Source of the DNA: Rothia mucilaginosa
GTDB lineage: Bacteria; Actinomycetota; Actinomycetes; Actinomycetales; Micrococcaceae
DNA: 64,000 nt
Direction of reading: 5' to 3'
NCBI RefSeq assembly: GCF_019334805.1
Contig: NZ_CP079822.1
Location: 124,001 to 188,000 of the forward strand
Below the pieces are notes generated by a model that was not told where the DNA came from, searched no databases, and saw only the letters and a list, made by a program, of their open reading frames with translations. Below, piece after piece: positions 1 to 18,836 of this stretch. Position 1 is the stretch's first letter, and each line of letters opens with the position of its first letter. Position numbers and translations under genes: made by a program.

Positions 1-84
1 CGCACTGTAACCCTTGTGGACGATACCTGCCAGCCTGAAGACATGCTGGATCTCGAAGAATACCCGGAGGTTTTCGATGCCTAA
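1..84 (+). CDS. opcA: OpcA C-terminus (partial, cut by window edge)
   Basis: The window opens inside a reading frame that gives 27 residues ending EEYPEVFDA before TAA at 82-84. It overlaps the ATG of pgl by 8 bases, the tight coupling expected of the actinobacterial zwf-opcA-pgl operon. OpcA assists assembly and activity of glucose-6-phosphate dehydrogenase. The identity comes mainly from this position, since the visible tail has no diagnostic motif. Confidence 0.6.
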   Translation, partial: RTVTLVDDTCQPEDMLDLEEYPEVFDA

Positions 85-1171
85 GATTCAGAACATGGGC
101 GCATCCACCCCTACCCTGGTGGCGCACCCGACCCGCGAGACTCTCGCAGCGGACGCGGTGACCCGCATCCTCGACATCATTGAGCACGTGCTCTCTGAGC
201 GCACCATCGCCCACATTTCGCTGACCGGCGGCACGATGGGTATCGCTACCTTGAAGGCGTGGGCTGAGAACGAGCGTGTGAAGGATATCGACTGGTCCCG
301 CGTGCACTTCTGGTTCTCCGATGAGCGTTACGTGCCCGAGCGTAGCCCCGAACGTAATGACGGTCAGGCTATTGAGGCGCTGCTCGCTCCCCTGCTGTCG
401 CACGGCCTGGTTGTGGGCAATGTGCACCGTATGGGTCCGTCCGATATTTTCACCGGTCTTGAGGCTGCTGCTGAGCACTACGCTTTCGAGATGCGCGACT
501 ACGCCGGTTCCGCACCGGCTGTGAGCGTGCAGATGCCTGAGGGCGCAACCGAACTGCCGCTGGCTGGCGGTCACGGTGGCGGCGCAGGTCACGAGCACGG
601 CGGCTCCGGCGGTTGTGGTTGCGGTGGCGGCGGTTGCGGTTCTTCTGCACCCGAGCAGTCCATCGAAGAGACCACCCTGGACGAATTTGACGCTGAGGCT
701 ACTGAGCCCGCAGGTGGTTGTGGATGCGGCGGCGGAGGCTGCGGTGGTGGCGGTGGCGGCCAGTGGCCCGCACCGGTCTTTGACATCACCCTGCTGGGCA
801 TGGGCCCGGACGGTCATATTGCTTCCCTGTTCCCGGGCCGTAAGCAGGTTCTGCTGGGTACCGGCCTGCCGGAGGATCCGGTTGAGGGCGGTAAGGCTGT
901 GACCGTGATGGTGTCCGATTCGCCGAAGCCGCCGGCTGAGCGCGTGTCGGTGACCCTGCCGATTATCAATAATTCGCGTCACGTGTTCTTCCTCATCACC
1001 GGTGAGGATAAGCAGGATGCGACCAGCCGCCTTCTGGCTGGCGCGAAGCTGGACGCTGAGGATCTGAACGCTCAGCTGCTGCTGGAAACCCCGGCGGTGG
1101 GTGCGCGCGGTAAGAAGCAGACCCTGATTTTTGCAACCGAGGAGTCGCTGGCTCCTGAGAACCGCCCGTAA
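77..1171 (+). CDS. pgl: 6-phosphogluconolactonase with Gly/Cys/His-rich insert
   Basis: This enzyme hydrolyses 6-phosphogluconolactone to 6-phosphogluconate in the oxidative pentose phosphate pathway. The ATG at 77 is chosen because a CGGAGG box lies 7 bases upstream and the start overlaps the end of opcA; an upstream in-frame ATG at 14 would extend deep into opcA. The 364-aa product shows the family signatures SDERYVP and GMGPDGHIASLFPG. It is about 100 residues longer than typical homologs. The extra length sits mostly at residues about 155-231, a low-complexity insert with His residues followed by two CGCGGGGC blocks (C180, C182, C187 and C215, C217, C222) separated by an acidic spacer. 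The insert comes just before the GxGPDGH active-site loop. The frame is continuous, so this is an insertion and not an error. Metal binding by the insert is an inference. Confidence 0.95.
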   Translation: MPKIQNMGASTPTLVAHPTRETLAADAVTRILDIIEHVLSERTIAHISLTGGTMGIATLKAWAENERVKDIDWSRVHFWFSDERYVPERSPERNDGQAIEALLAPLLSHGLVVGNVHRMGPSDIFTGLEAAAEHYAFEMRDYAGSAPAVSVQMPEGATELPLAGGHGGGAGHEHGGSGGCGCGGGGCGSSAPEQSIEETTLDEFDAEATEPAGGCGCGGGGCGGGGGGQWPAPVFDITLLGMGPDGHIASLFPGRKQVLLGTGLPEDPVEGGKAVTVMVSDSPKPPAERVSVTLPIINNSRHVFFLITGEDKQDATSRLLAGAKLDAEDLNAQLLLETPAVGARGKKQTLIFATEESLAPENRP

Positions 1172-1197
1172 GGTTCGGTTCTGAACTGCACCAAGAT

Positions 1198-1236
1198 AAA
1201 GAGTGGAGCCCCGGATAGTTTCGACTATTCGGGGCT
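1198..1236. repeat. 39-bp direct repeat, left copy (pgl terminator)
   Basis: This segment recurs at 1937-1975 with a single T/C difference. The two copies bracket the hicAB pair. The left copy is also the terminator stem of pgl. Confidence 0.85.
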
Positions 1237-1240
1237 TTTC
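1207..1240 (+). terminator. Rho-independent terminator of pgl
   Basis: A 12-bp stem (AGCCCCGGATAG with CTATTCGGGGCT, one G-T pair) closes a TTTCGA loop and is followed by TTTTC. It lies 35 bases after the pgl stop. Confidence 0.85.
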
Positions 1241-1265
1241 TCTATGGTTTTAAACCAGCCCGAAA

Positions 1266-1286
1266 TGGTACCAGAAGTGGTACTAT
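1266..1286 (+). promoter_or_regulatory. hicAB promoter with repeated TGGTAC operator
   Basis: TGGTACCA (1266-1273) and TGGTACTA (1278-1285) are spaced 12 bases apart centre to centre, a layout suited to a ribbon-helix-helix antitoxin. TACTAT at 1281-1286 can serve as a -10 box. That would put the transcription start at about 1292, the hicA ATG, so the transcript may be leaderless; no Shine-Dalgarno box is visible. No convincing -35 box was found. Confidence 0.5.
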
Positions 1287-1291
1287 AAAGT

Positions 1292-1543
1292 ATGCCGAGT
1301 ATTGAAGATTTAGTCGCGAAGATGGCTACCAGCCCTCAAAACGTTACTTTCACTCAACTTCAAAAGGTATGCACCCATTTCTTTGGAGCGCCGCGTATCC
1401 GCGGATCTCACCACTACTACAGCACGCCCTGGCATGGTGACCCTATTGTCAACATTCAACAGGGAAACTCTGGTAAAGCAAAGAAATACCAAGTCAAGCA
1501 GGCTCTAGCAGCCATTCGAAAACTGGAGAATAACGATGACTAA
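1292..1543 (+). CDS. hicA: HicA-type mRNA interferase toxin
   Basis: This 83-aa protein has the HicA double-stranded-RNA-binding-like fold signature: a GSHHYY segment with the likely catalytic His40, then a C-terminal helix beginning KKYQVKQAL. HicA toxins cleave mRNA and tmRNA until neutralised by HicB. Its stop overlaps the start of the next gene by 8 bases, the usual toxin-first hicAB arrangement. The length is normal for the family. The possible leaderless start and the direct repeats around the pair are noted separately. Confidence 0.88.
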   Translation: MPSIEDLVAKMATSPQNVTFTQLQKVCTHFFGAPRIRGSHHYYSTPWHGDPIVNIQQGNSGKAKKYQVKQALAAIRKLENNDD

Positions 1544-1880
1544 TACTCTCCCCCGCCAGGAGCTCTACACCTACCGCGTCGAGTGGTCTGAAGACGACCA
1601 GGAATTCGTCGGAACCGTCGCCGAATTTCCCAGCCTCTCATACCTGGCCCCAACCTCTACCGAGGCATTCGCAGGTATCCGAGAAGTCGTCGCCGACACC
1701 CTCGAAATTCTTGAAGAAGACGGCCGCGAGGCACCCGAACCGTTCTCTCTGCGTTCCTTCTCAGGACGATTCAACTTGCGTGTTTCACCGCAATTGCATC
1801 GTCGTCTGGTTCAGCAGGCAGCGCTTTCTCACCAGAGCCTGAACCAGTACGTGAGCCAACAGCTCGAAGCGGTCGCCTAA
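1536..1880 (+). CDS. hicB: HicB-type antitoxin with Arc-like DNA-binding tail
   Basis: This 114-aa protein begins with the HicB RNase H-like half (YRVEWSEDDQEFVGTVAEFP). It ends in a ribbon-helix-helix segment (FNLRVSPQLHRRLVQQA, then HQSLNQYVSQQLEAV). The first part binds HicA and the tail should bind the TGGTAC repeats upstream of hicA. The start overlaps hicA, so the two are translationally coupled. Confidence 0.88.
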   Translation: MTNTLPRQELYTYRVEWSEDDQEFVGTVAEFPSLSYLAPTSTEAFAGIREVVADTLEILEEDGREAPEPFSLRSFSGRFNLRVSPQLHRRLVQQAALSHQSLNQYVSQQLEAVA

Positions 1881-1936
1881 GTAAGCCAGCATGTCTTCAT
1901 CATCCAACGAAGATTCCAAAATGTTATGACATGACA

Positions 1937-1975
1937 AAAGAGTGGAGCCCCGGATAGTTTCGACTATCCGGGGCT
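1937..1975. repeat. 39-bp direct repeat, right copy
   Basis: This is a near-identical copy of 1198-1236 (one T/C change), placed 57 bases after hicB. In this copy the stem is extended into a perfect 20-bp palindrome. Confidence 0.85.
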
Positions 1976-1983
1976 CCACTCTT
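1938..1983. terminator. Perfect 20-bp hairpin between convergent genes
   Basis: The arms are perfectly complementary over 20 bp around a TTTCGA loop and end in AAG/CTT. It lies between hicB (rightward) and the TerD-like gene (leftward, stop at 1995), so it can terminate both. Confidence 0.8.
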
Positions 1984-1994
1984 GCTACGCCCGC

Positions 1995-4637
1995 CTACTG
2001 TTCAGTAGCGGCAGGATTCTGCGGCTCTTGTTCCTCCGAAGATTCATCCGCCTCAAAGCCCACGTACAGTGCCGCCAGCGACGGAACCGTCGCCTCCAGC
2101 ACTTGCTGCGCCTCCTCGGGGCTCGGGGTGAGCTTCGCGCCGGTCAGCTGCAGGTACTCGCGCACCGTCATGGGCTGCGCCCAGTCAAAGTGCTCACGCA
2201 CGGCGGTGATGTTCGCGCCAGACTGCAACACGTTAATGCCGTGGGCAAGACCAATATCCGTCACCTTCACGATGGCGTCGGTCTCCTCCGGGATGTCGTA
2301 CGGGTCGCGGTTCTGCAGGTCCACGATGAACGGCAGCACACCGCGGCTCTCAGCGCGCAAGGTGAACTTGGTGTGCACCTGGCTCACCTCATGCACCTCA
2401 CCCACACCTACGGCGGGCACCACCATGAAGCCCGCCTGCAGGTCGTTCACCGCGGCCAGGGTGTGTGCCTCCCCGAAGCCGGAGTACAGCTGCACCACCG
2501 GCACGAGGTAGCACACCTCCGCCTTGAGCGCCTTGCGAGCCTCAATGTCGATGTACTCCCAGGCGCCGCCGGTACCGTCCGTAATGTCGCCGGAGTGGTG
2601 CGCGTAAATGGCGCCCTGGCTGTTTTTCACGGTCTGCGACCAGTAGCTGATCTTGTCCATGTAGTTGCCTTCGGCGTCGAACATCATCAGCGACAGGTCA
2701 ATGTCCACGCCCTCATCCCAGAAGCAGAAGAGGCGAATCACGCCGGTGGGCGGCAGGTGCACCGTGGAGGTGTTGTAGCGGCCCATACCGTCCAGGGAGG
2801 GGCGGGCACTGCGTGTGTTCAGCGGCATGATCGTATCACCCACCTGCTCGGGCAGGTAGATGCTGGTCTCGGCAAGACGGCCGGACAGGCCAATCTCGAC
2901 CAGGCGCTCCAGCAGGTCCAGCACGACCGGGCTGTACTCGCGCGCCGGAATCATGGTGGCGATACCGGTCTTGGACAGGTTCATGCGCTGCGGGGCGGCA
3001 GGCTGAGTCTTCTGAGCGGACGCCGCGCGGCGCTCCTCGCGCTGGCTCGCGGCAGGTTCGGAACCGACCGGGATAGAAGGCAGCGGGTTCTCCGGGCCGG
3101 AATTATCCCCGAAGAACGAGCCCAGCGGGTTCGGGATGCCCGCGTTCTGCATGATGTTCTGAACCCTCGCGACGCCCTCCGGGTTGCGGCGCGCGTAGTC
3201 GGCGAGCTCCCGGTCCTCCTGCACCGCCACTGGGTTGGCGGGGCGCTCCTTCGGCGGGTTCGCGAGCGCATTACGCTGCAGGGCCACCAGGTTACGAATC
3301 TGGACCAGAATGGGCGCGGAAACACGCGGCGCCACGGCGGCAAACGCGTCAAAGATGACCTGCTGGCCGGGGCTCGGCGTGGTATCAATGCCGTAGCGGG
3401 GCGCTTCGAAAGCATCCAGGGCGCGCACCAGCTGGCGTGCAAACACGCCGGGACGGGTCGAGAGCAGACGTGCCACGTTCTGCGCATCCCGGGTTGCGTA
3501 GGCGCGGTCCACCAGCGACTCGAAGCTGTACACCTCGCCGCGGTACAGGTCGTCAGCCCAGCGGCTCAGCGCGGTCAGTGACGGGTAGTCGCCGGGGTGA
3601 ACCGCCTTGACGAGGCGCTTGTACATTTCGGCGGCGGGTGCGCTGTCGTAGCGGGCACCGACCGGGTCAGCTTCCAGCACCCGGTTGAGCAGGTGCGCGA
3701 TGCGGGTGCGTTCGCTACGGCGCAGCTTCAGGCGCGGCGCGGTGCTCAGGCTCAGATCCCCCACCGTGCCGTTGAAACGCAGACGCGAGTAGGCGGCGGC
3801 GAGGGCGAGCGCCTCCTTCATGGTGCGCAAGTGCTCAGCGTCTTCGGGGTGCAGGCAGGCGGCGATGAACACGCGGTTTTCGCGGCTGGTGTTCTCCGGT
3901 CGGGCAGCCGGCAGTGCGTCATGCTGGGCGAGGAAACGGCGCAACGCCACAAGGTCGCGCTGGTCGGTCTGGTTGTACGCCTGCTGCTGACCGAGCAGCT
4001 GCTGGTAGAGGGCACCCGCCATGATCAGGGCGTTCTGCACGCCGCTGACCATCTGCAGGGGTCGGCGGTTGCGTTCCATGCTGGTGAAGTTGGAGCGGCT
4101 CATCGGCTGCTGCCACTCGTAGGGCACGTAGTTCTCGGGCAGGCCGCCAAGGATTCGCTCGGTGCCGTCCGGGTTGTAGTACGGGTTGGAGAGGTAGTGC
4201 ATGATCTGCTCGGTGTAACGCTGCTCGTCGCTGAGCGTCAGGGCGCGCAGATCAAAGTCGCGGCGGAACACGCGGCCGGGGCGGTACCCGTATTCGTAGG
4301 ACCAGATGGTCGCGAACAGGGCAAACTCGTTGGCGCTGGCACGTAGCGCCTGGGCGAGGGACTCGTCGCTGAGGGTCAGACCGCAATCGCTCAGGAAGGA
4401 CACTCGCCCCAGGTCGGTGTCGAATACGCCGGAGTGGTGCCGCTCATTAATGCTCGAGAAGTCCGAGCGGTAGTAGGGGCCGTACAGGTCGGTGAAGACG
4501 TACACGCCGTAGCGGCGCATCAGGATGAGGCGCACGAGGGGGCTGAGGCCCTCGGGCGCTTCGCCGTGAAGGTACGCAGATTCGTTGAGATAGGGTGATT
4601 CTTGCAGGTAGGGGGATGCGTCGTAGGGAGTAGTCAC
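1995..4637 (-). CDS. Large protein with C-terminal TerD-like domain
   Basis: This 880-aa protein starts at a GTG preceded by GGAAAGGA. Residues about 625-790 resemble the TerD/calcium-binding stress fold: CFWDEGVDIDLSLMMFDAEG, then a HHSGDITDG turn and a WEYIDIEARKAL strand-helix. The middle part (about 340-430, VHPGDYPSLTAL followed by LLSTRPGVFARQLVRAL) is like the architecture of the MXAN_6230/SCO0854-type TerD-linked proteins, but no RING cysteine cluster is visible. A Pro/Ala-rich linker (about 480-560) joins the halves, and the N-terminus is Tyr-rich with ASPYL/ESPYL/ESAYL repeats. It is the last gene of the leftward SWIM-DUF6493 operon, although 449 bases separate it from its upstream neighbour. 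TerD proteins are linked to tellurite and envelope or DNA stress responses. The exact role here is unknown. Confidence 0.65.
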   Translation of the reverse strand: MTTPYDASPYLQESPYLNESAYLHGEAPEGLSPLVRLILMRRYGVYVFTDLYGPYYRSDFSSINERHHSGVFDTDLGRVSFLSDCGLTLSDESLAQALRASANEFALFATIWSYEYGYRPGRVFRRDFDLRALTLSDEQRYTEQIMHYLSNPYYNPDGTERILGGLPENYVPYEWQQPMSRSNFTSMERNRRPLQMVSGVQNALIMAGALYQQLLGQQQAYNQTDQRDLVALRRFLAQHDALPAARPENTSRENRVFIAACLHPEDAEHLRTMKEALALAAAYSRLRFNGTVGDLSLSTAPRLKLRRSERTRIAHLLNRVLEADPVGARYDSAPAAEMYKRLVKAVHPGDYPSLTALSRWADDLYRGEVYSFESLVDRAYATRDAQNVARLLSTRPGVFARQLVRALDAFEAPRYGIDTTPSPGQQVIFDAFAAVAPRVSAPILVQIRNLVALQRNALANPPKERPANPVAVQEDRELADYARRNPEGVARVQNIMQNAGIPNPLGSFFGDNSGPENPLPSIPVGSEPAASQREERRAASAQKTQPAAPQRMNLSKTGIATMIPAREYSPVVLDLLERLVEIGLSGRLAETSIYLPEQVGDTIMPLNTRSARPSLDGMGRYNTSTVHLPPTGVIRLFCFWDEGVDIDLSLMMFDAEGNYMDKISYWSQTVKNSQGAIYAHHSGDITDGTGGAWEYIDIEARKALKAEVCYLVPVVQLYSGFGEAHTLAAVNDLQAGFMVVPAVGVGEVHEVSQVHTKFTLRAESRGVLPFIVDLQNRDPYDIPEETDAIVKVTDIGLAHGINVLQSGANITAVREHFDWAQPMTVREYLQLTGAKLTPSPEEAQQVLEATVPSLAALYVGFEADESSEEQEPQNPAATEQ

Positions 4638-5086
4638 GGGTCGTCCTTTCCGTTGGTCTCACCCGACTGTCACCGTCGGTGGTGGTCTATTTTCTTATCG
4701 TAGCGGCGTGGGTGCGAGTTGTCGCTGGGTTTGGTCATCGGTGACCTGGGGGCGCTTAGCTCATTAGCTCGGGGCTTCGGTGGTGCCCAGTTCATGGGCG
4801 GTGCCCGGTCTATGCGGGACGGAAGTTAAAAGAAAAATGGCGGGAAGCGAAGAATCCGACAAATATAAGAAAAAGATATTTCAGAAAGTAGGACTCTTCA
4901 TGATCCGCCATTACCTATAGATTACTCCCGCCCCGCGAGGGGGGTCAAGCCGTTTCGTCACCGAAGCATACTAGGGAGTTTCTACTAGGGGGTTTCTACC
5001 CACCGGTGAGGCTCTAGCTAAGGGGCAAGTAGCCTCACCGGCAGGTAGGTTTTTCGGACTAGGACTCTCGGACTAGGACTCTCGGA
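4638..5086. other. Intergenic region upstream of TerD-like gene
   Basis: No gene is seen in these 449 bases. The part at about 4840-4900 is AT-rich and could hold the promoter of the TerD-like gene, but no clear -35/-10 pair stands out. It also contains a hairpin and a 14-bp tandem repeat, both listed separately. Confidence 0.5.
5003..5041. other. Hairpin downstream of the 966-aa gene
   Basis: CCGGTGAGGCT and AGCCTCACCGG form an 11-bp stem, lengthened by CTACC/GGTAG outside a CA/CA mismatch. The T run (TTTTT at 5050-5054) is on the plus-strand side. It is therefore not a classical terminator for the leftward operon, but could attenuate or process the transcript. Confidence 0.45.
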
Positions 5087-5096
5087 CTAGGACTCC
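5055..5096. repeat. 14-bp tandem repeat x3 over a stop codon
   Basis: CGGACTAGGACTCT occurs three times at 5055, 5069 and 5083; the last copy has one change. The third copy contains the stop codon and last codons of the 966-aa gene, so the repeats arose by duplication of that gene's end. Confidence 0.85.
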
Positions 5097-7987
5097 CCCA
5101 GCAGGGCGAGCGCAGCTTCGCGGGCGGCAAGCGCCTCCTCCGTCTCGCGGGCAGGCACGGCGGCTAGGGCGCGTAGTGCCTTCGCCATGACCGTGGAGCC
5201 CTTCATCTTCGGTTCCAGCTCCGCAGGAATCTCAACCGGCGTGCCGTACAGCTCGGCAAGCTCCACGGCAAGACGCACATAGTCGCCGCCCTTCGTCAGC
5301 CCATCAACCATCGGCAGCAGCAGACGCAGAACCTGCAGCACACGCCAACCCGCCAGCGGACTAATAGCCGACACCTCACGCAGGGTCGCCACCAGGCGGT
5401 TCGGAAGAACCATCCCGTCCTCCAGCGCCCACTTCAGGGTCTCAGCGAAGGTTGACGCATCCAGCAGGCCCGCCTCAAAGAGTGCCGCAATGGCCTCTGC
5501 CGCCGCCAGACGGTACTCAGGATTCTTCGCGCTCGCCACGTAGCCGAGCAGGGTGCAGGTCGGGGCGCCCACCTGCACGGTGGACTCCCTCAACGCGCGC
5601 ATTAGTACGGGAACGGGGGTGACGGTCTTCTCCTCAACGCACTGCGAAGCGGCAAACAGGAAGTATGCCGAGAGCAGGTCCGGGTTGTTCTGAAGCAACC
5701 AGGACGCCCACTCGGTGAGCACGATAATATAGTCGCCCCGCCACCCATCGACGCTATCGAGATTCAGTAGGCACACGAAGGGAATCAAGGCGGTGTTTAA
5801 CACCTCGTAGGCGATGGCTTCCTCGGGGCTCATGCCAGCGGTTGCGTGGCTCAGCGCCTCGCGCGCCTCATCCGCAGTATCCACGATGTCGCCCTTGACC
5901 TGCCACATGGGCTGGTACTTCACGAATTCCTCAACGTTAAAGTTTTCGAAACCTGCCTCGCGAAGACGACCCGACCTGCTGGCCTCCTGGTATTCCCAGA
6001 CTCGATCATTGTCGAGACCACGATTGAAGCCGCTCCAGGGCATATCCAGACCAGAAACAGTACGATAAGTCCAGTCACTGTAGGTAAGCTGACGGGCGGG
6101 TAGTGGTGCGCTCAGCAGACGCACCGTGCGTCCTTCCGTGTGGTACTCTCCCCCGGCGGCGACGGCACGCATCTGCTCGCGGAAGATCTCATAGAGGTCA
6201 CGGTAACCCTTCAACGGCTTGTAGTCAGCATTCCAGAGATGGTGTTTATTCTGAATAGTCAGACGTATCATCTCTTCCTTGCTCAGGAGCGCGTTACTCG
6301 GGCGAGCTCGTGCAACCATCTCACTACGGTCGGAATACTGCAGGAGCGGCGTCAGCTCGGGTAGCTCCCAGGATTTGCACCCCATGGCCTCGGCGTTAGC
6401 TTCCAATACTGCGCGGAGAACAGACATGTAAGCGACGTTGTTGTAGTAATATTCGCTGGCAATCTTGCGCAGGGTACGCAGTTGCTGCTGACCCGCCGGT
6501 GCCAGCTTGTCGGTCGCGGCAAAGTGGTAAAGACGAGCCAGGTTCTCTCCCCTAGTGCGGGGAGATTCGTCCCCGGTAATTCGACCCGAGGTGGTGTTCG
6601 ACTCTTCCGTAATGAGGGTGCAGAACTCATCCAGATTCGCGATGGATGCGACGGGTTCTCGGTGCTCAACGCCGGGCAAGAGCACCGGCGGTACCTCTAC
6701 GGAGGCGCCCGCCGCCTCCGCCTCTTCCGCCTGGGGTAGGCGGTCTTCGGGCAGGCAGGCTTCCGCGGCGCCGCGCAGTTCCAGGGGTAGCACCTCGTAA
6801 GCCTCAAGGATGCGCTCAGCAATGTATTCGGCGAGCGCCAGCTGCTCGGCGGTTTGCGCCTTCTTGCGCTTGGCTTTGCTCAAACCAGCGTACTGGGTGG
6901 CGATGAGCTTGAGCAGGCGCAGGGCACCGCGCTGAATCTTCTTCTCGGTGCGGTAGAGGTTCGCGCCGAGTGCGTCAATGAGCTGTTCCAGCTCGACCTG
7001 TTCGAGCGGTACCAGCTCTGCGTTTTCGTTCTTCTGCAGGGCGGCGGGTGCGCAGGCTTTGAGCACGTTCTGCAGCATGGTCTGGGCGAAACCAACCGAT
7101 GCGCTCGGTTCGGCGGTGAGGACAGCCATAAGCTGCCCGAAGCGTGCCCGGTTCTCCTCATCGGTGGGCTGCAGATCGGTGTAGACGGAGTGGAATGCCG
7201 CCGAGTTGAAGGCGCTGAAATCGCTGGTCAGGCCACGTAGCAGGGCGTCCAGAATCTCGTCGCGGATGTCGAAGTATTCGCCCATGAGGCGGCACAGTTC
7301 CGCGCTTTCGCCCATGTAGTTGCCATAGCCCTTGAAGAGCACCCCTTCGGTGCGGAAAATCGCCCAGAATTCCTGGTCGAGCAGGGTCATGTCACGGGTG
7401 AAGAAGGTTTTGAGCTGGGCGTGATTACTGGTGCTTCCCTTCTTCACGCTGGGCAGGGCTTCGTGCAGGAAAAGGACCAGGTATTCGGGGGCATCGCAGC
7501 TCAGGTTGCGGGCGCGAAGTAGCGTGTAGCAGGTTTCCCAGATCTTCTTCGAGCGCGCCCAAGAGTTCGGCAGCCCCTCAATAAAACGCAGAATCCACTC
7601 CTCGGGGCGTTCGGTGGCGCCGAGCAGGAACGCGTCAATCAGCTGCTGATCGGGTTTACCTTCCCAGAGTAGGGTGCGCATGGCGCGGCCGGCGGAACGG
7701 TGGTATTCCCACGGGTCACCGTCGGGGGTGCGCACGAGCGCCCCGGCAACGTAGGCGGCAAGCGGGGTGCGGTTAATGTGGTCGCTACCGATCACGCTCT
7801 TAGGGGTGAGGGTTCGGGCGAAGGATGCGCGTTCCTCCTCGGTAGCGCCTGTGATGACGGCGTGGTATTCCTGCACGTCAGTTGATTCTGCCTCCATAAG
7901 GGCTTTGAGGGCGGCGCGGCGCTCTTCGAGGGTGCGCTCACCTGCGCTGTGCTCGTTAGGGTTATGCGGCTGGGCGGTATCAGTCAT
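5087..7987 (-). CDS. DUF6493-like giant helical-repeat protein (second copy)
   Basis: This is a 966-aa, mostly alpha-helical protein without signal peptide or membrane segments, so probably cytoplasmic. Its middle (IRDEILDALLRGLTSDFSAF, then a LMAVLTAEPS block) matches the neighbouring 922-aa protein (LIDALLSSLMSDFPAYRVGW, then FLTLFSSPIG). The two are paralogs of the DUF6493 type that accompanies SWIM-domain proteins in actinobacteria. The helix-turn-helix rhythm suggests HEAT-like repeats acting as a scaffold. No catalytic motif was recognised. It starts 78 bases after the stop of the 922-aa gene with a weak AGCAGG box, in the same operon. The function is unknown. Confidence 0.7.
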   Translation of the reverse strand: MTDTAQPHNPNEHSAGERTLEERRAALKALMEAESTDVQEYHAVITGATEEERASFARTLTPKSVIGSDHINRTPLAAYVAGALVRTPDGDPWEYHRSAGRAMRTLLWEGKPDQQLIDAFLLGATERPEEWILRFIEGLPNSWARSKKIWETCYTLLRARNLSCDAPEYLVLFLHEALPSVKKGSTSNHAQLKTFFTRDMTLLDQEFWAIFRTEGVLFKGYGNYMGESAELCRLMGEYFDIRDEILDALLRGLTSDFSAFNSAAFHSVYTDLQPTDEENRARFGQLMAVLTAEPSASVGFAQTMLQNVLKACAPAALQKNENAELVPLEQVELEQLIDALGANLYRTEKKIQRGALRLLKLIATQYAGLSKAKRKKAQTAEQLALAEYIAERILEAYEVLPLELRGAAEACLPEDRLPQAEEAEAAGASVEVPPVLLPGVEHREPVASIANLDEFCTLITEESNTTSGRITGDESPRTRGENLARLYHFAATDKLAPAGQQQLRTLRKIASEYYYNNVAYMSVLRAVLEANAEAMGCKSWELPELTPLLQYSDRSEMVARARPSNALLSKEEMIRLTIQNKHHLWNADYKPLKGYRDLYEIFREQMRAVAAGGEYHTEGRTVRLLSAPLPARQLTYSDWTYRTVSGLDMPWSGFNRGLDNDRVWEYQEASRSGRLREAGFENFNVEEFVKYQPMWQVKGDIVDTADEAREALSHATAGMSPEEAIAYEVLNTALIPFVCLLNLDSVDGWRGDYIIVLTEWASWLLQNNPDLLSAYFLFAASQCVEEKTVTPVPVLMRALRESTVQVGAPTCTLLGYVASAKNPEYRLAAAEAIAALFEAGLLDASTFAETLKWALEDGMVLPNRLVATLREVSAISPLAGWRVLQVLRLLLPMVDGLTKGGDYVRLAVELAELYGTPVEIPAELEPKMKGSTVMAKALRALAAVPARETEEALAAREAALALLGES

Positions 7988-8065
7988 TGGTACCTGCTTT
8001 CAGAGTTGATGGTGAATGGTTGTGAAGAGTTGAACGGAAGTGTTGAACGGGGACCGGTTGAACGG

Positions 8066-10834
8066 TTAGCCCTGCACCTGGTTGAGGATATTCCGGGCGT
8101 ACCGCGCCTTCTGCGAAGAACCGGTCAGCGAACCCAACCAGGCACGCAGCGGCTCATCCACGAGCTGCGCACGGGTGGCAGGGTCGAGAGTCGCCAACGC
8201 CTGGCTGAAGGCGCCCAGCAGCTTACCGAGCGAGTTCGCCCCGGTATCCAGGTGCGGTATGAGGCACGCGAAGAATCGCACCGCCGCCCACGCATCCAGC
8301 TGGGCGAAGTCGGTGAGGGCAAGCGCCCAACGGTTCAGCATCGCCAGCGGCACAAAGTCCACGAAGCCTGCGGTGGCGTCCTCAAGGCTGAGCTGGTCGT
8401 CCAGCACGCGGTGCATGATTTCCACGGCGAGGGAACGAACCTCGACGCGCTGCTCCGAGAAGCCCGCGGCGAACACGAATGCACAGGCGGGACCCCACAC
8501 GCCGGGGTGCGCCGCCAAAGCCAGGTAGAGTTCACGGTCGAAGGCGCTATGGTCCAAGCTGTACCAGTTGCTACTAGCGCAGTAGAAAGCCAGCGGTTCT
8601 GCCCGTGAGGGATAGAGCAGGGCGTACTGTCCTTCTTCGCTGTGGTGGGCGGTGGCGAGTCCGCGGAAAGCGTTCAGCTCGGGGGTGGAAGCACCGTGCG
8701 CCACCCCGTTCAGCTGAAGGCCCCAGCTTTTTTCCCTCTGGGTTACCGTGATGGATTCCAGGTAGGGGTTGACGCGCCCGGTGGCGAGGGTACCGTCAAG
8801 GGCGGAGCGGAGCACACGAATCTGGGTAGGAGCAGAGCGCGGAGCGTCCTGCCCAGCGTTCTTCACGTATTGCTCTTCGAGGCTTTCAAGCAGGGTCAGC
8901 GCCTCAGCGCGGCGGTTCTGCGCATCCTGTCGCTGCTCGTCAGTAGCGTACGGAGGTAGCACCTCCGGCACGCGCACACGCAGTAGCGCCGCCGTAAAAT
9001 CCGGGCGCAGGATGGGGGCTCCGTCAGCCAGGTTCTTGGCGTACCGGCGCACCAGGGTATCCGGATGCACCCACCCACCGAACAGCTCAGGGGTGGCGAT
9101 CGGCGTGTAGCTCTGCCTGCTCTTCAGCGCGCCGAGGGCATCCTTGAACCCGGTGCTGAAGAACGCAGCGTGGCGGGAGTACATGTAGTGCAGGTTCGGC
9201 ACCGTACCGGGGTCTTCCTTCGGGGTCATCTCCGATGCCTGCGCGCGCTCACGCAGCTTCCCGGCGGCGGCAAGAACCGTCAAATGCACGCGCATATCGA
9301 ACCAATCCAGACCCCAGTGGTTCAGCTTTTTCAGGCAGAGGGGAACAAGCTGTTCGAGCAGGTTCGGGCTCTGCGCGGTGCCGTCGGCGCTGAGCAGGTA
9401 GGCGGTGAGCAGTTCCAGCTCCAGCTCGCATCCGGCGTGCGTTTCGGGCTGGTCTGCTTCGTTGAGCGTGTCGGGGATGGCGCAGGGCGCGACCTGGTGG
9501 TGCAGGAGCGCACGGGCGCGTTCTTGCACGTCGGATGCAGTAACGGGGCGCACGGGGGTGTCCCAGTACCGGTGGATTGCGGTGCGGGAGGCGGCGAGCG
9601 CCTCCGCGGCGGCGGCCTCAATGTCAGCAGCTTCAGTGAGGGCGCTTTCCTCACCGCTCCCCTGTCCATTCTCCAGGTCTTGTGCTTCTTCAAGCAGCGG
9701 CGAGCCGTTCTCCTGAATCTGCGCCACAACCAGCGGATCCAGCTGGGAACGGTAGTCGCGGTAGAGTTCACGGGCACGCTCAGCGAACACGATAACGTCG
9801 GCGCTCGCGTCCTCAGCGGCACCAGCCTGCACCCATTCTTCGAGGTGGTTGAGGGCGGCGGCTTGAACCTGCGCGTGGGTGTGGCTGAGCGCCATGACCA
9901 CAGCGTCTTCGTAGGCGGCAGCGTCGAGGGTGCCCGCCCGGTAAAGCGCCTGGAGCATGGTCAGGATTTTGAGTGCGTTTGCCTTGGTTCCGGCGCATAC
10001 GGCGGGTGCCGCGTAGGCGAAAGCGGCGGCATCCAGCGCCTGCGGGTTTTTGCTCCAGAGGCGGTGAATATGCTGCACGCCGAGGGTTACGCTCGGACCG
10101 ATGGGCGAGGAGAAAAGCGTCAGAAATTCGCTCTGACGTGCCGCGATTTCTTCAGCGGTGAGTTTAAGCCCGGTGACCAGGCGTGAAAACCAGCCGACCC
10201 GGTACGCCGGGAAGTCGCTCATGAGGGAGCTTAAGAGCGCGTCAATGAGGCGGTCACGGCTGATCAGCCCGGTTTCGGTGGCTTCGATGAGGGCGCAGGA
10301 CCAGCCGGGGTTGTTGACCTTCTGTGCGGGCTTGTAGGAGTCGCGCTGGGTGAGGGATACGTCCCGGTTACCTTCGACGGCGAGCATGCCCCAGATGAGC
10401 TCTTCACGCAGTTGCTTATCTTCACGCAGCAGCGGGAGGATCAGCTCGCGGTCACAGTTGATGAGGGCGGTGTAGTATTCCTCGTTGTGTTTGAGGCGCG
10501 CCCCGCCGTAGAGCTCAGCTAGGCGCATGGCAACGCCTCCGGTGAACCAGCCGAACTCTGCGTAGGCTTTCACGCGGTCCTGCGTGACGGTTCCGGGCGT
10601 GTTTTTGCCGAGCTGGGATCCGTAGGGGGTGGTGACAATGTCGAAGTACTGCCAGCGGCGGTAAATCTGTTCGAGGGTGCCACCGACCGCCAGGATATTG
10701 GCGAGATTGCGGTTGAAGTGCATGATGTCGCTCCAGGTTTTCTGTTGCCTGAGGAGCGGGTGAATGACTTCGCCGGGAAGCGGCTCGGTGATGACCCCTT
10801 CGGGGAAGGTGTGCGTTTCGGGGCGTTTGCTCAT
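8066..10834 (-). CDS. DUF6493-like giant helical-repeat protein (first copy)
   Basis: This 922-aa soluble, helix-rich protein carries the DUF6493-type core at about residues 150-280 (WSCALIEATETGLISRDRLI, then LKLTAEEIAARQSEF). It continues through HEAT-like helices, an acidic linker rich in Glu and Ala (about 390-420) and a C-terminal helical region. It is the paralog of the downstream 966-aa protein. The ATG at 10834 follows GAAAGACC, a weak ribosome site, 82 bases after the SWIM gene. Operon membership suggests that it works with the SWIM and TerD-like proteins. No enzymatic residues were recognised. Confidence 0.72.
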   Translation of the reverse strand: MSKRPETHTFPEGVITEPLPGEVIHPLLRQQKTWSDIMHFNRNLANILAVGGTLEQIYRRWQYFDIVTTPYGSQLGKNTPGTVTQDRVKAYAEFGWFTGGVAMRLAELYGGARLKHNEEYYTALINCDRELILPLLREDKQLREELIWGMLAVEGNRDVSLTQRDSYKPAQKVNNPGWSCALIEATETGLISRDRLIDALLSSLMSDFPAYRVGWFSRLVTGLKLTAEEIAARQSEFLTLFSSPIGPSVTLGVQHIHRLWSKNPQALDAAAFAYAAPAVCAGTKANALKILTMLQALYRAGTLDAAAYEDAVVMALSHTHAQVQAAALNHLEEWVQAGAAEDASADVIVFAERARELYRDYRSQLDPLVVAQIQENGSPLLEEAQDLENGQGSGEESALTEAADIEAAAAEALAASRTAIHRYWDTPVRPVTASDVQERARALLHHQVAPCAIPDTLNEADQPETHAGCELELELLTAYLLSADGTAQSPNLLEQLVPLCLKKLNHWGLDWFDMRVHLTVLAAAGKLRERAQASEMTPKEDPGTVPNLHYMYSRHAAFFSTGFKDALGALKSRQSYTPIATPELFGGWVHPDTLVRRYAKNLADGAPILRPDFTAALLRVRVPEVLPPYATDEQRQDAQNRRAEALTLLESLEEQYVKNAGQDAPRSAPTQIRVLRSALDGTLATGRVNPYLESITVTQREKSWGLQLNGVAHGASTPELNAFRGLATAHHSEEGQYALLYPSRAEPLAFYCASSNWYSLDHSAFDRELYLALAAHPGVWGPACAFVFAAGFSEQRVEVRSLAVEIMHRVLDDQLSLEDATAGFVDFVPLAMLNRWALALTDFAQLDAWAAVRFFACLIPHLDTGANSLGKLLGAFSQALATLDPATRAQLVDEPLRAWLGSLTGSSQKARYARNILNQVQG

Positions 10835-10916
10835 GGTGGTCTTTCGGGTGGAAGCTGAGGCGAGCTTTTGGGGCGTCGTCTTTTAGCGCGGTGCGTGGTG
10901 CGCCGGGGCGTTTACC

Positions 10917-12326
10917 CTAGCCGGCGGCGTGTTCTCGGTAGAGAATGCTAACCGCCAGCGCGTGCTTGCAGGGACCGCGCGTACCGCGGTACTTCAGCCA
11001 CCAGGGGCAGGAGCAGAGGTACCCCTCCACAGCGTACGGGTCGGCGGGCAACACCACGGTGTACGTATTCTCGCCGCTGCGCACGCTGTACTCACCGGTA
11101 CCGTGCTCCCCCGCCCCGACCCGCTCAATGGCGCCGGAGTCGGCAAGCTTTTTCGCGCCGACCAGGCGCGGGTGCATGGCGGTCAGCGCCTCCGGATGCA
11201 CGGGCAGCGGGCGGTGGAAATACTCGCCAGCGTGCGCGTCAAAACCAACCTGACCGGAGGAAGCCAGCAGGGCGAGGGCGTCGCGGGTTGCCGCCTCGTC
11301 CAGGCCGGCGCGGGCAGACATGACGGGCACGTCAATGCGCGGCTCGAAGGAGAGCAGCACGCTGAGCATGTCAGCGTTCCGGGCGGTGTTCGGGTTAGAC
11401 AGCGCCTGCAGCACGGACCCCTCACCTGAGAATCCGCGTGACTTTTCGGGGCTCAGACCAATACTCAGGCGTGCGCCGGGCAGGTGCGCCACCCACACGC
11501 TGGGCACGGGCGCGTTACCGGCGGTTACGGGCTCGCTGTAGGCGTCCAGGCGCTGAATGTGGCGGATGAGCGGCTCAAGCACGCGCAGACGCTCGGGGCC
11601 CGCCACGCATACGGATCCGGCGGTGGCGCGGGTGGCAAGCCGCAGGGAACGCACGGCGCGGGTCGCCCACAGGACCGCCTTGGTGCTGGAGTTACGCGGC
11701 AGGGAGTGGATGAAGGTTCGGGCGGCGGCAGCGTCCAGGCTGTGCACGGGGCTCATGCGGGATGAGAGCATCTGCGTTTCTGCAAAGCCCTTGAGCCAGC
11801 GGATGGGCAGCGGCACTTTTTCTTCCATGACGGAGCCGTCAAGGGTGGTGGTGAGCAGCCCGTCGTCGCCGACGTTCAGGTGGATGGGCTCCCCTGCCCT
11901 GAGGGAGGCGAGCGCGGCACGCAGGGGCGGGTTGACGTCTACGTTGGTGACGCCTACGGCGCTGTGGCTGGCGTCGAGCGCGCTGGAGTCAACGTCGAGG
12001 CGCGCGTACACTCCGCAGCAGGCGCTGAAGGATTCGAAGCGCAGGCCTTCGGCGGTGCTGGTGACGACGGGGTCTGCGGCGCGTAGGGCTCCGGCGAGGG
12101 AGCTGGGCGGCACGTAGAAGCGGGTGCGGGCGACCCTGGCGACGACCAGTAATGCGGTGGCGTAGACGTCTGCTCGTTCGAGGAACCCGGAGAAGAAGTA
12201 CGGGTGGGAGGCGGCACCTTCAGGGGTGCTGCCGCCGCTGGTGGCGAGGCTGAGCGCGCGGGAGTCGGCGCCGTCGATGAGGGCTGACGGGGCGGTGTAC
12301 GTGTAGTCGAGGGTGTAGGCGCTCAT
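10917..12326 (-). CDS. SWIM zinc-finger protein
   Basis: The ATG at 12326 (MSAYTLDYTY) is preferred over an in-frame ATG at 12419 because the extra 31 residues would run into the secG terminator and look non-coding. AAAGG precedes the chosen start. The 469-aa protein ends in a SWIM motif, CSCPWW...GPCKHALAVS (CxCx(n)CxH), at about residues 450-463. The N-terminal part (LSLATSGGSTPEG, FESFSACCGVYARLD, VDVNPPLRAAL, VPLPIRWLKGFAE) matches the actinobacterial SWIM proteins found beside DUF6493 genes. SWIM domains bind zinc and mediate DNA or protein contacts. It is first in the operon and is a likely recognition subunit (inference). Confidence 0.82.
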   Translation of the reverse strand: MSAYTLDYTYTAPSALIDGADSRALSLATSGGSTPEGAASHPYFFSGFLERADVYATALLVVARVARTRFYVPPSSLAGALRAADPVVTSTAEGLRFESFSACCGVYARLDVDSSALDASHSAVGVTNVDVNPPLRAALASLRAGEPIHLNVGDDGLLTTTLDGSVMEEKVPLPIRWLKGFAETQMLSSRMSPVHSLDAAAARTFIHSLPRNSSTKAVLWATRAVRSLRLATRATAGSVCVAGPERLRVLEPLIRHIQRLDAYSEPVTAGNAPVPSVWVAHLPGARLSIGLSPEKSRGFSGEGSVLQALSNPNTARNADMLSVLLSFEPRIDVPVMSARAGLDEAATRDALALLASSGQVGFDAHAGEYFHRPLPVHPEALTAMHPRLVGAKKLADSGAIERVGAGEHGTGEYSVRSGENTYTVVLPADPYAVEGYLCSCPWWLKYRGTRGPCKHALAVSILYREHAAG

Positions 12327-12419
12327 GGCTTCTTTGCCTTTCGTATGTGGTGTATATGTCCTATCATGCCGTAAAGATTCGCGCCCCGCTACCGCTTTCG
12401 TCATTGCCGTTTGGTGCAT

Positions 12420-12457
12420 AAAAAATCCCCGGCATTCTCGGTTGAGAAGTGCCGGGG
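12420..12457 (-). terminator. Terminator of secG
   Basis: CCCCGGCA...TGCCGGGG with an inner TTCTC/GAGAA pairing is followed on the minus strand by ATTTTTTAT. It separates the secG transcript from the SWIM operon. Confidence 0.85.
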
Positions 12458-12516
12458 AGAAGCTCTATTGGCTCACCCTCGGTGGGGTGGGCGTGGGCTC
12501 TGATGAGAGGCTCTGA

Positions 12517-12774
12517 CTAGACCACAATCTGGCCGTTGAAGCGCAGGGCCAGGCCGTACAGGACCACTGCGATAACCCAGATGACGATTACGGTCACGGT
12601 CAGGCGAATCAGGTTCTTCGACGCCATACCGGAGGAGTTCAGGGAGTTGGTCATACCGCCACCGAACATGTCGGAGAGGCCGCCGCCCTGACCGCGGTTG
12701 AGCAGCACAAGCATCACTGCGATCACGCTGGTGATGGCAATGATGACCATGAGTACGTTCATGATGACGTCCAT
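12517..12774 (-). CDS. secG: Preprotein translocase subunit SecG
   Basis: This 85-aa protein has two membrane helices (about residues 3-24 and 56-76) joined by the conserved loop LLNRGQGGGLSDMFGG. SecG sits in the plasma membrane and assists SecYEG-mediated export. An AAGGAAGG box precedes the ATG. Its place after tpiA, with a small membrane protein between, fits the actinobacterial gap-pgk-tpi-secG order. Confidence 0.95.
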   Translation of the reverse strand: MDVIMNVLMVIIAITSVIAVMLVLLNRGQGGGLSDMFGGGMTNSLNSSGMASKNLIRLTVTVIVIWVIAVVLYGLALRFNGQIVV

Positions 12775-12882
12775 GGGGACCTTCCTTCGTTGTCTTCTGG
12801 TGGGGTGCCTGGGCTGCGGGGCGCAGACAGACGGGTTTAACTATACGCTACAGCCGCCATTCGGTCACGTTGAGGCGGCTTT

Positions 12883-13347
12883 TTACGCGGCGCGGTTGGT
12901 GCGGCGCTGGTACTCGCTGGGGGTCAGCTGCAGGGCCGCGGGCCGGTCGGTGAGCACGCGCTGGGCGGTGAGCTCATCGCCCTCAGTGTCGTAGGCGCGC
13001 ACGTACCCGCCGTCGATGAGGTAGTAGGTGAACTGCTGCGCGGCTGCCCAGTAGGCGCCTCCTCCGGCGTAGAAGCCCTGGTCAACCCAGTCGCGCAGGG
13101 TGAGGGTCACGGGGATTTCCGGTGAGGAGGTACGGCTGTAGAGCTGGTCGAGGAATGCTTCTCGGCGGCTCTCGAAGTACTGGTATTCGGGCGAGGGTTC
13201 CTGGTATTCTGCGCCGCCTGCGTAGCCGATGTTGCCGCCGTCATTGCCGGGTAGGCGCGGGGCACTCACTTTGCGGTTGCGCAGGTAGCTGTAGAGGATC
13301 ATGCCGACGAGGGCTGCGACGACCAGAGAAAAACCAAAGCTGAACAT
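12883..13347 (-). CDS. Single-pass membrane protein of unknown function
   Basis: This 154-aa protein has an N-terminal membrane helix (SLVVAALVGMILYSYL), a basic stop-transfer (RNRK), a flexible Gly/Pro/Tyr linker and a soluble C-terminal part (about 65-154) beginning YFESRREAFLDQLYSR. No family was recognised. It lies between tpiA and secG on the same strand and could be co-transcribed with secG, whose ATG is 108 bases downstream. Confidence 0.7.
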   Translation of the reverse strand: MFSFGFSLVVAALVGMILYSYLRNRKVSAPRLPGNDGGNIGYAGGAEYQEPSPEYQYFESRREAFLDQLYSRTSSPEIPVTLTLRDWVDQGFYAGGGAYWAAAQQFTYYLIDGGYVRAYDTEGDELTAQRVLTDRPAALQLTPSEYQRRTNRAA

Positions 13348-15240: not shown

Positions 15241-16122
15241 TTATACCTCTAGTCCTTCGAGGGAGAATCCCGGAGGGTATAGCGGCGTGGCGTCCTTATC
15301 GTCTTCCACGAGCACCCAGCGGCCGCGCAGGTGCTCCGCGCAGAGGAAAGCGTATTCTTCCTCACCGGTCTTCAAGAACTTATCGATGGGTAACTTCTCC
15401 CCCGTTTGGGACACGTAGAAGACAGCCTCATCGCGAATACGTCGTCTTGCCTGATATTCGCTGATATTACGGCTGTTCTTTTGGCGTCTACCGATACCGG
15501 GAATCGTAACCTGTACGCGGTACACGTCCTGATTGGCGATAAGCCAACCGCGGTTTTCCCGGTACAGCCGAAGAAGCTCGGGAGAAATGATCTCTTCGGG
15601 GTTGATTACTTCAGAGAGCGGTTTGGTATCTCCGGTGTAGTAGAAATAGTTCAGGGCGGCATAAAAGTACGCTTGAAAAATGTAGAAACCACCGCGGTTA
15701 TACTCATTCATTCCCGGCTGCAGAACAGGGTACGGCACATTCTGGGCGGCACGCTCTTCGGTGGCGGGCACGTACCTGCCGTTGCGTTCATAGGCGGTGT
15801 ACACCATAAACCCCGCTGCGCTTCCACGGTCTACGTAACCAGCATCAAACTTCTCGTCAGGTTCTAGAGCGATTAGTGCCCTATCCCGTTTAAGAAGGCG
15901 TATTTTCTGCTTTTCCTCATTGGTGGCGAGGATACCGGTCTGTCGACCGACGAAGAGGGCACCAAGGGCTCCCACGCCTGCTACAGCGAGGGTACGACGA
16001 GAAAAACGGGGCTTTCGCGGCTCCTGCTGATGAGCAAGTAGCTGACCAGAAGATACCGGAGGAGCTTCCTGGGAGGAATTCTGCTGGGCGCTCGTCTCCT
16101 GTTCCTTACGTTGGGGCTCCAT
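15241..16122 (-). CDS. DUF6318-like anchored protein, type A (copy A1)
   Basis: The ATG at 16122 is used because AAGGAGG lies just upstream and it directly follows the stop of B1; a longer frame to 16164 would overlap B1. The 293-aa product has a Gln/Pro-rich cytoplasmic tail, then a Tat-like anchor (RFSRRTLAVAGVGALGALF, about residues 37-58). Its extracytoplasmic domain contains RYVPATEERAAQNVPYPV and ALNYFYYTGDTKPLS, the hallmark of DUF6318-type actinobacterial envelope proteins. The domain ends in HLRGRWVLVEDDKD and YPPGF. The function of the family is unknown. It pairs with B1 upstream. Confidence 0.7.
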   Translation of the reverse strand: MEPQRKEQETSAQQNSSQEAPPVSSGQLLAHQQEPRKPRFSRRTLAVAGVGALGALFVGRQTGILATNEEKQKIRLLKRDRALIALEPDEKFDAGYVDRGSAAGFMVYTAYERNGRYVPATEERAAQNVPYPVLQPGMNEYNRGGFYIFQAYFYAALNYFYYTGDTKPLSEVINPEEIISPELLRLYRENRGWLIANQDVYRVQVTIPGIGRRQKNSRNISEYQARRRIRDEAVFYVSQTGEKLPIDKFLKTGEEEYAFLCAEHLRGRWVLVEDDKDATPLYPPGFSLEGLEV

Positions 16123-16124
16123 TG

Positions 16125-16727
16125 TTATGCCTCCTTCTTTTCGGGGATGAAGTGGATGTCCCATCCGGGATCGAGGAAACGGGAGCGCAGGGTGCCGTGG
16201 ATTGCTCCGTCGCGAAGGAGTCCGCGCGTGTCGAATTCGGTGATGGGCTGTAGCTGCCCGGTATCTTTCCGGAAGACTTTTGCTTCGGGGAGGATGTCGA
16301 ATTTGACGTTCCAGTCGAAGATTTTTTGTTCTTCGTTGTGGATGCGCGGTTGTGCTTCGAGAATGTGCATGGTCAAGATTTGTTGGTTGGGGGTGATGAC
16401 CCAGCCTTTTCCGTCGTCAAAGATATCTTGGATGGCGGGGAAGAATAGTTCTTCGGCGGTCATTGCATATTCGAGGCGGCGCGAATCGGATGCCAAAAGC
16501 ATATAGTTTTGGCATTGATAGTAGTAGATATTATAGAATTCCAAATCAGCGGACGTTAGAAATTTAGTAAACGTATAGCTGTAGTCTGGCGGCGGCGCAG
16601 AATATGCAGGGTGTTGCTGGTCTGCCGGGGTATAAATTCCAATCATGTCAGTATCGACAAGATGGTATGCTCCCCTATAGTCCTCTTGGTTGAAGAATTT
16701 TTTAGTCCACTCCGGGTCGACAGTCAT
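16125..16727 (-). CDS. DUF6318-like protein, type B (copy B1)
   Basis: The start at 16727 (MTVDPEW) is chosen for its AAGGAGAGG box and because other B copies begin at the same distance from the DYxG motif. The 200-aa product has YTPADQQHPAYSAPPPDY, YYQCQNYMLLASDSRRLE, a GKGWVITPNQ block and FDTRGLLRDGAIHGTLRSR. It aligns with the type A domain (PATEEHPAQNVPYPV region) and so is a divergent DUF6318 relative. No signal peptide is visible, unlike A types and B2, so export is uncertain. Its stop is 2 bases before the A1 start. Confidence 0.62.
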   Translation of the reverse strand: MTVDPEWTKKFFNQEDYRGAYHLVDTDMIGIYTPADQQHPAYSAPPPDYSYTFTKFLTSADLEFYNIYYYQCQNYMLLASDSRRLEYAMTAEELFFPAIQDIFDDGKGWVITPNQQILTMHILEAQPRIHNEEQKIFDWNVKFDILPEAKVFRKDTGQLQPITEFDTRGLLRDGAIHGTLRSRFLDPGWDIHFIPEKKEA

Positions 16728-16785
16728 TTCCTCTCCTTCTAAAAATATGTCTCTGATCGCCAAATGCTATTTTGAATTCACGAAT

Positions 16786-17652
16786 CTATTTCGTGTATCC
16801 GGCGACAGAAACACCCTTGGGCAACAAAAGATCCCCTTGTAGATTTTCGTCAACGCTTACCCAGCGTCCATCCAAAAACTCTCCGTAGAAATCTATAGTT
16901 GGGTGGCGGTCAGTATGAAACATATCCCGAAAATATTTCACTTCGCCGGTATCGCGATACACAAAATAGGCGTCTCCATATATCGACAATTCCGTCTGCA
17001 GCTTGTATATTTTTCGTCCCTGAATCTCTCGGCTACCGTATCCGTGAGTTTCCACCATATACGATTCAATTTCTTGATCCGAAACAATCCACCCCTGGTT
17101 ATTGGCTATAAATTCGTACACATTGGGAAAGATAACTTTCTCGGGGTCAACAATCTTTGCTAGGGGTTCAAGATCACCGGTCAAATACCCGTAGTTCTTG
17201 GCAGCGTTATAGTAGGCGAAGAACAAGTACATACCTGAAATATCGTATGTATTCATCTTCTCGCGGATAACTGGGTAGGGTACATTCTGTGCGGGTGCCT
17301 CACGGGTTGCGGGAACGTAGAGACCGTCCTTGCGGTATGCGGTGTACACCAGCCGACCAGATAGACCTGCTGCAGTATTCTTGTAGCTTTCCTCTGCAAT
17401 TGTTGTTGCAGGCTCGGCGGCGGCTAGTGCTTGGTTTCGCTTCCATGAGGCATCTTCTTGCGCGATTCGCTCGTTTAGCGAAGCTTTCCAGTTTGAGCCA
17501 GCCACATACAGACCCGATGCTGCGGCAGTGCCTACTACAGCAGATCCCAGTAACAGGGCACGACGAGAGATTTTGGGGTTCTTTTTCTGCTCTGATGGGT
17601 TATTGCCGGTTGAGGATTCCCGAAGAGCAGGAGTGTTATTGTTTTCCTTCAC
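16786..17652 (-). CDS. DUF6318-like anchored protein, type A (copy A2)
   Basis: A GTG at 17652 preceded by AAAGGAAAGG and 14 bases after the B2 stop is the likely start. A longer frame to 17736 would overlap B2 without a ribosome site. The 288-aa product has a Tat-like anchor (ISRRALLLGSAVVGTAAASG) and the domain signature YVPATREAPAQNVPYPV with AKNYGYLTGDLEPLAKIV. It ends with FLDGRWVSVDENL. It is AT-richer than the glycolytic genes around the array. Confidence 0.7.
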   Translation of the reverse strand: MKENNNTPALRESSTGNNPSEQKKNPKISRRALLLGSAVVGTAAASGLYVAGSNWKASLNERIAQEDASWKRNQALAAAEPATTIAEESYKNTAAGLSGRLVYTAYRKDGLYVPATREAPAQNVPYPVIREKMNTYDISGMYLFFAYYNAAKNYGYLTGDLEPLAKIVDPEKVIFPNVYEFIANNQGWIVSDQEIESYMVETHGYGSREIQGRKIYKLQTELSIYGDAYFVYRDTGEVKYFRDMFHTDRHPTIDFYGEFLDGRWVSVDENLQGDLLLPKGVSVAGYTK

Positions 17653-17666
17653 TGTTTTCCTTTCCT

Positions 17667-18428: not shown

Positions 18429-18788
18429 AGCAATAATCCTTGAGGTTACATAAATTTTCTACATTTGTTGGGAGTTGAAATATCTACTGCATCAACTTAC
18501 AAAGAACATTCATTGTTCAGACAACAAATGAAATCATTAAACGAATACATACCTTTAGCGAGTCAGCATCTAACTTGTCGGCGTTAGATGCTTGAGCCGC
18601 ATCGTGAGAGCCGCGTTGTAAGAGCTTTAGCGCACTCACCTTGAAAAGGCACAGGGACGGCATAAGCCTGAAAAGTAACCATAAATTTAGCTTCCGGAAG
18701 TTGAAGTTGATGTGACGGTGAACGAGCTTCCTCGCCCACCCTTCAAGGTAACACACGCGCCCGCGGCACACGAACCCAGCAGGACGGA

Positions 18789-18836
18789 TTCCACCTCCCG
18801 TTGCTTCCACCTCCCATTGTTTCCACCTCCCCCAGC
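18789..18836. repeat. 16-bp tandem repeat x3
   Basis: TTCCACCTCCC(G/A)TTG(C/T) is repeated at 18789, 18805 and 18821; the third copy diverges at its end. It is non-coding. Confidence 0.85.

Follow-up and report, generated by a model that had tools for sequence, protein, structure and literature searches.

What do four leftward genes do that stand between secG and pgl in Rothia mucilaginosa, and do they act as one machine? They lie in a 64,000-nt stretch (NZ_CP079822.1, 124,001 to 188,000), here called the window, whose positions serve as coordinates throughout. A first-pass annotation, made from the letters of this DNA, had read them as a single operon for a SWIM zinc-finger protein, two giant paralogous DUF6493 proteins and an 880-aa protein with a TerD-like end, and had proposed a stress, defence or nucleic-acid surveillance machine. 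We confirm all four minus-strand open reading frames (Table 1), and find that the SWIM gene and its DUF6493 partners are the conserved core to which the TerD-like gene has been added within Rothia. Together these genes probably form a mobile module for DNA surveillance or for defence against phages.

The SWIM gene and DUF6493 form a conserved pair

A three-sequence alignment of the SWIM protein, searched against genome contigs, gave 163 relatives, and the best 80 of these 163 loci were analyzed. They are mostly from Actinobacteria, and also come from Comamonadaceae, another betaproteobacterial bin and a Gemmatimonadota bin. Using a DUF6493 profile made here from 23 chosen proteins, we find a partner at most 600 bp from the SWIM gene in 71 of the 80 loci, 62 times downstream on the same strand; four further loci have one within 5 kb, and five have none within the flanks. 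SWIM plus DUF6493 is thus a real conserved unit, as the first-pass annotation had stated for actinobacteria. In a sample of 396 genomes from the phylum, the SWIM gene adjoins DUF6493 in all four other genomes with a match to Pfam family PF20103, while five of the nine other genomes that match the SWIM model of PADLOC (SWIM_XIII) lack a PF20103 match, two of these five matching at the finger end only. We found no paper naming DUF6493, and no account of the pair among the matches listed, in a searched library outside which most subscription papers lie.

The other neighbours vary. Apart from one cluster with no Pfam match (8 loci), the recurrent clusters (at least 8 of the 80 loci, not overlying SWIM or DUF6493) are, judged by their representatives, ABC transporters in 22 loci, LacI regulators in 10, short-chain dehydrogenases in 9 and sigma factors in 8, and all of these clusters lie at scattered positions; the remaining clusters overlie the SWIM or DUF6493 genes in other frames. 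Among representatives of the clusters in at least 8 of the 80 loci there is no clamp loader, MoxR or vWA protein, neighbours not having been scanned one by one. Of the TerD, MoxR and vWA partners that the first-pass annotation had thought worth surveying, MoxR and vWA were not found to recur and the TerD-like gene is linked only in Rothia, within the flanks examined. Like the present locus, the MoxR-vWA ternary conflict systems of actinobacteria are large and accessory, consist of several genes and include helical parts (PMC7159879, eLife 2020), although by Pfam none of our four proteins has a MoxR, vWA or VMAP domain; the word SWIM is absent from the text examined of that paper.

Several copies are carried on plasmids. 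Eight records in a plasmid collection contain SWIM relatives, one of which, at 11.9 Mb, is surely a chromosome. On a Diaphorobacter plasmid a DNA-binding protein and a site-specific integrase stand beside VapBC and are followed by SWIM-DUF6493-DUF6493, and an Asticcacaulis plasmid carries SWIM-DUF6493. Among the Streptomyces plasmids, one context has a Fic toxin near the SWIM relative, another has IS elements and a different large neighbour replacing DUF6493, and one relative (32% identical) has no DUF6493 annotated. No carrier was found among the phage records and viral contigs searched.

The SWIM protein has a predicted sliding-clamp fold

The zinc finger seen in the first reading is well founded: Pfam SWIM matches at 7.7e-7, the motif lies at the end of the protein, and CxC...CxH is present in 60 of 60 aligned rows. 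Ahead of the finger, a monomer model predicts a complete two-domain PCNA-type clamp, a prediction that we rate as solid and whose fold matches are PCNA and 9-1-1. Nine of the 17 conserved lysines and arginines fall within assigned helices. Sequence comparison does not detect this relationship, since no clamp family of Pfam matches up to E 1, and no clamp is among the matches of a 60-row profile to PDB sequences up to E 10. The clamp gene is also the most constrained of the four. In comparisons between three R. mucilaginosa-type genomes, SWIM has a dN/dS of 0.03-0.06, each DUF6493 gene 0.14-0.22 and the TerD-like gene 0.16-0.21, against 0.00-0.08 for tpiA. All four genes are thus under purifying selection, and strong positive selection on DUF6493 is ruled out.

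Bacteria are known for a three-domain beta clamp. The predicted protein would share with PCNA, 9-1-1 and the beta clamps a complete PCNA-type fold with conserved basic residues in helices, but it differs from all of them in lacking detectable sequence similarity, in carrying a probable winged helix and a SWIM finger on the same chain, in being bacterial and accessory, and in having a HEAT-like protein encoded beside it and, among the recurrent neighbour clusters, no AAA+ loader. The fold matches could also fit a DNA-repair clamp for housekeeping or stress, comparable to 9-1-1 and kept for genome maintenance, with the HEAT proteins as repair scaffolds, the TerD-like protein as stress sensor and no role in defence; a weak co-occurrence of SWIM and SCO0854-family genes, described below, points the same way, but is uncorrected and is not counted as a functional link. 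The patchy distribution, plasmid carriage, presence across phyla and gene loss ill suit a housekeeping function, and we consider this explanation unlikely.

A second alternative comes from PADLOC, whose SWIM_XIII model covers much the larger part of the clamp as well as the finger at 4.4e-46; across this span our protein and that of the model are one family. We take this model to belong to the type XIII retrons, which carry a SWIM protein and a HEAT-type protein; the suggested retron link derives from the name of the model. The locus could then be a relative of the type XIII effector without reverse transcriptase, in which clamp-SWIM and its HEAT partner are kept inactive until infection disturbs DNA and, once released, arrest growth by jamming replication. 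The toxin-antitoxin genes and integrase adjoining plasmid copies would suit such a role. However, the other parts of a type XIII retron were not found: the whole genome gives 0 matches to RVT_1, not one of the five matches from a crude motif scan of sampled loci (a weak test) resembles a reverse transcriptase, no Rfam family exceeds its cut-off in 1000-13000 (the 449-bp gap included), so that no retron RNA is recognised at the locus, and three DUF6493 proteins searched against PADLOC matched no model. We regard the effector explanation as doubtful, if somewhat less so than a repair clamp.

DUF6493 partners vary in number and sequence

The 922-aa protein matches DUF6493 in Pfam at 8.1e-14, while the 966-aa protein, read as its paralogue in the first-pass annotation, matches at only 6e-4, under the cut-off. 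The helical repeats ascribed to both are supported, and a HEAT-like solenoid fold is predicted. In a chosen set of 30 aligned partners, 27 match PF20103, and 10 and 9 match DUF7824 and DUF7825. Unlike such DUF6493-DUF7824-DUF7825 proteins, the Rothia genes occur as variable arrays.

Between secG and pgl the number of partners is 2, 3 or 9 in different Rothia, and the pair of scaffolds in the window is therefore not a fixed one. In one genome (G595) SWIM stands with three 966-type genes, all intact (884, 888 and 891 aa), and there is no TerD-like gene; R. aeria (AP017895) has SWIM, nine 966-type copies and then the TerD-like gene; and a third genome (G002) has a truncated SWIM gene, no DUF6493 at the site and an intact TerD-like gene at the contig end. 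In the R. aeria assembly several 966-type copies are frameshifted, and because SWIM and pgl carry frameshifts there as well, these could reflect assembly errors or decay. R. aeria (G591) also has a second site (L125, 9334-16465), with a broken TerD-like gene and a fragmented 922-type DUF6493 gene and without SWIM.

The R. aeria 966-type copies diverge in trees, in which copies 1 and 3 of G595 cluster with copies 2 and 4 of R. aeria on branches of at most 0.13; whole genes have therefore been gained or lost around shared ones. The likeness of G595 copy 2 to R. aeria copy 3 is based on the first residues only. The three G595 copies are 38-39% identical overall, which rules out assembly duplication as the source of that array. 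Their identity is unevenly distributed: one stretch of 50 aligned columns close to the carboxy terminus reaches 84-86%, while much of the second half preceding it has only 11-57%. A uniformly hypervariable centre describes these copies only partly, as the amino-terminal half is likewise just moderately conserved.

The TerD-like gene is an addition within Rothia

The first three genes are separated by gaps of 82 and 78 bp. Upstream of the TerD-like gene, however, there is a gap of 449 bp with a strong hairpin and a conserved leader, which argues against the single four-gene operon of the first-pass annotation. The hairpin, which lies 3' of the 966-aa gene, belongs to a 141-nt fold of -54.6 kcal/mol (z -3.2) and is not kept in relative G101; the leader is conserved in four of four genomes. 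A promoter-like pair can be seen in the leader by eye, but a consensus promoter scan gave no promoter there. At 5054-5095 a 14-bp tandem repeat in three perfect copies overlaps the end of the 966-aa gene.

The TerD-like end itself is weakly supported by sequence comparison. The 880-aa protein has no Pfam match, and PF02342 (TerD) has 0 matches across the whole genome, but residues 642-732 match a profile of three true TerD proteins (confirmed by Pfam) with E 1.2e-4 and a probability of 55%, and tblastn against the same three, in a tiny database, aligns 77-92 residues at 26-32% identity with E values from 1e-5 to 9e-4. The closest known relative is the MXAN_6230/SCO0854 RING-TerD family (NCBIfam NF041916), which matches at 2e-39 with 135.5 bits against a curated cut-off of 600. 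Unlike that family, the protein has no RING finger that we could find, whereas a full-length relative (L159) has one, and among the loci examined its linkage to SWIM-DUF6493 is confined to Rothia.

That linkage is seen in three R. mucilaginosa-type genomes and R. aeria. A four-gene operon conserved outside Rothia was rejected, since the profile of the 880-aa family matches only Rothia loci among the 90 scanned, and outside Rothia the SCO0854 family is unlinked to SWIM-DUF6493 wherever positions were compared. In the genus of genome G302, probably Streptomyces, SWIM and the SCO0854 family occur together in 50 of 246 genomes where 37 are expected (uncorrected p 7e-4); for the 35 genomes with over-cut-off matches only, p is 0.19, which is not significant. 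A functional link there was dropped, because the positions compared show no linkage, the statistic is not corrected for shared ancestry and the over-cut-off subset falls short of significance.

The linkage and the TerD-like region would be expected if the four genes were one Ter-type stress or metal-response unit. Such a unit does not account for the missing Pfam TerD matches, for the absence of the TerD-like gene from the flanks of all non-Rothia SWIM loci examined, for its own leader, or for its persistence in G002, which no longer has DUF6493 genes at this site, and we hold it to be very improbable.

An insertion between secG and pgl

That the genes are inserted between pgl and secG, which normally converge directly, is borne out in a sample of 35 Rothia genomes. 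A pgl gene was found in 34, and 30 pgl loci were returned, six of them from genomes that carry SWIM or TerD-like genes. Of the remaining 24, 22 have secG directly convergent on pgl; one of the two exceptions is interrupted by a contig end, and the other (G611) is without secG within 1.5 kb and has neither SWIM nor DUF6493 within 20 kb. SWIM relatives occur in 6 of the 35 genomes and the TerD-like protein in 5, plus one weak match of 81 residues.

The hicAB pair had been taken to belong to the insertion. G600 and G101 lack it between their TerD-like gene and pgl, so that it was gained in the window strain or lost in these two, independently of the module. HicB is confirmed by Pfam (2.3e-14) and HicA was assigned by eye only.

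A model for the module

The explanation that we favour, and to which we would give an even chance, is that the SWIM-clamp encircles DNA and that the DUF6493 solenoids load it or recognise targets, so that the module detects foreign or damaged DNA. The SWIM-finger protein, if its predicted PCNA-type fold is correct, would form a ring around DNA and contact it through the conserved basic helices, while the winged helix and SWIM finger may hold DNA or a partner. The HEAT-like solenoids would serve as loading or recognition arms: we infer that their constant carboxy-terminal end could dock to the clamp and their divergent centre read the target, with defence as the probable pay-off. The TerD-like protein, as a Rothia add-on, probably senses or restrains the module. 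The idea of nucleic-acid surveillance in the first reading is thus strengthened, because the SWIM protein has a predicted PCNA-type clamp, but the TerD-like gene does not generally belong to it.

A bolder form of this model is conceivable, though we put it well short of an even chance: a second, mobile class of bacterial PCNA-type clamp, joined to a winged helix and a SWIM finger and loaded by, or bearing, giant exchangeable HEAT arms encoded in expandable arrays, acting as an immune checkpoint on foreign DNA and also as the effector of type XIII retrons. If true, bacteria would unexpectedly have a second clamp, of PCNA type, conserved, mobile and joined to a SWIM finger, and a whole retron type would gain a possible action at its effector end. 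The so far unexplained SWIM and DUF6493 pair in any case receives a concrete biochemical hypothesis, for which the Rothia series, with 2, 3 or 9 partner genes between secG and pgl, offers a natural test of interchangeable specificity arms.

Features of the locus

The SWIM frame may open at ATG 12419, but this codon directly adjoins the run of T in a terminator-like hairpin that follows secG, and the start at 12326, as in the first-pass annotation, is therefore more likely. Residue numbers of the SWIM protein refer to the 500-aa frame.

Table 1. Positions of the module, its parts and its neighbours in the window.
Feature	Positions	Strand	Remarks
SWIM-clamp gene	10917..12326	-	469 aa from ATG 12326; open frame extends to 12419
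Predicted PCNA-type sliding-clamp region	11445..12197	-	residues 75-325, 500-aa numbering
Segment read as winged helix	11214..11423	-	residues 333-402; the name is our reading of secondary structure
SWIM zinc finger CxC...CxH	10944..11063	-	residues 453-492
DUF6493 protein, 922 aa, first ancient clade	8066..10834	-	
DUF6493 protein, 966 aa, second clade (expanded in sister species)	5087..7987	-	
Strong hairpin, stem of ~20 bp, 3' of the 966-aa gene, possible transcription end	4996..5049	-	
Conserved leader of the TerD-like gene with promoter-like TTGACC-18-TAATCT (by eye)	4825..4962	-	
33-codon hydrophobic reading frame inside the TerD-like leader	4810..4911	-	
880-aa TerD-like protein, diverged SCO0854 relative without RING finger	1995..4637	-	
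hicAB-like pair, independent of the module	1292..1880	+	HicB by Pfam, HicA by eye
secG, one flank of the insertion site	12517..12774	-	named by eye and from the first-pass annotation
pgl, opposite flank of the insertion site	74..1171	+	named by eye and from the first-pass annotation

Elsewhere in the window, nine tandem paralogues, each with BLAST matches to others among them, lie on the minus strand at 15241-23685 between tpiA and a pgk-like gene. They fall into two subfamilies of ~200 aa and ~300 aa. By eye, several of them begin with a Tat-like or membrane segment, and the set resembles a second expanded array that may be exposed at the surface.

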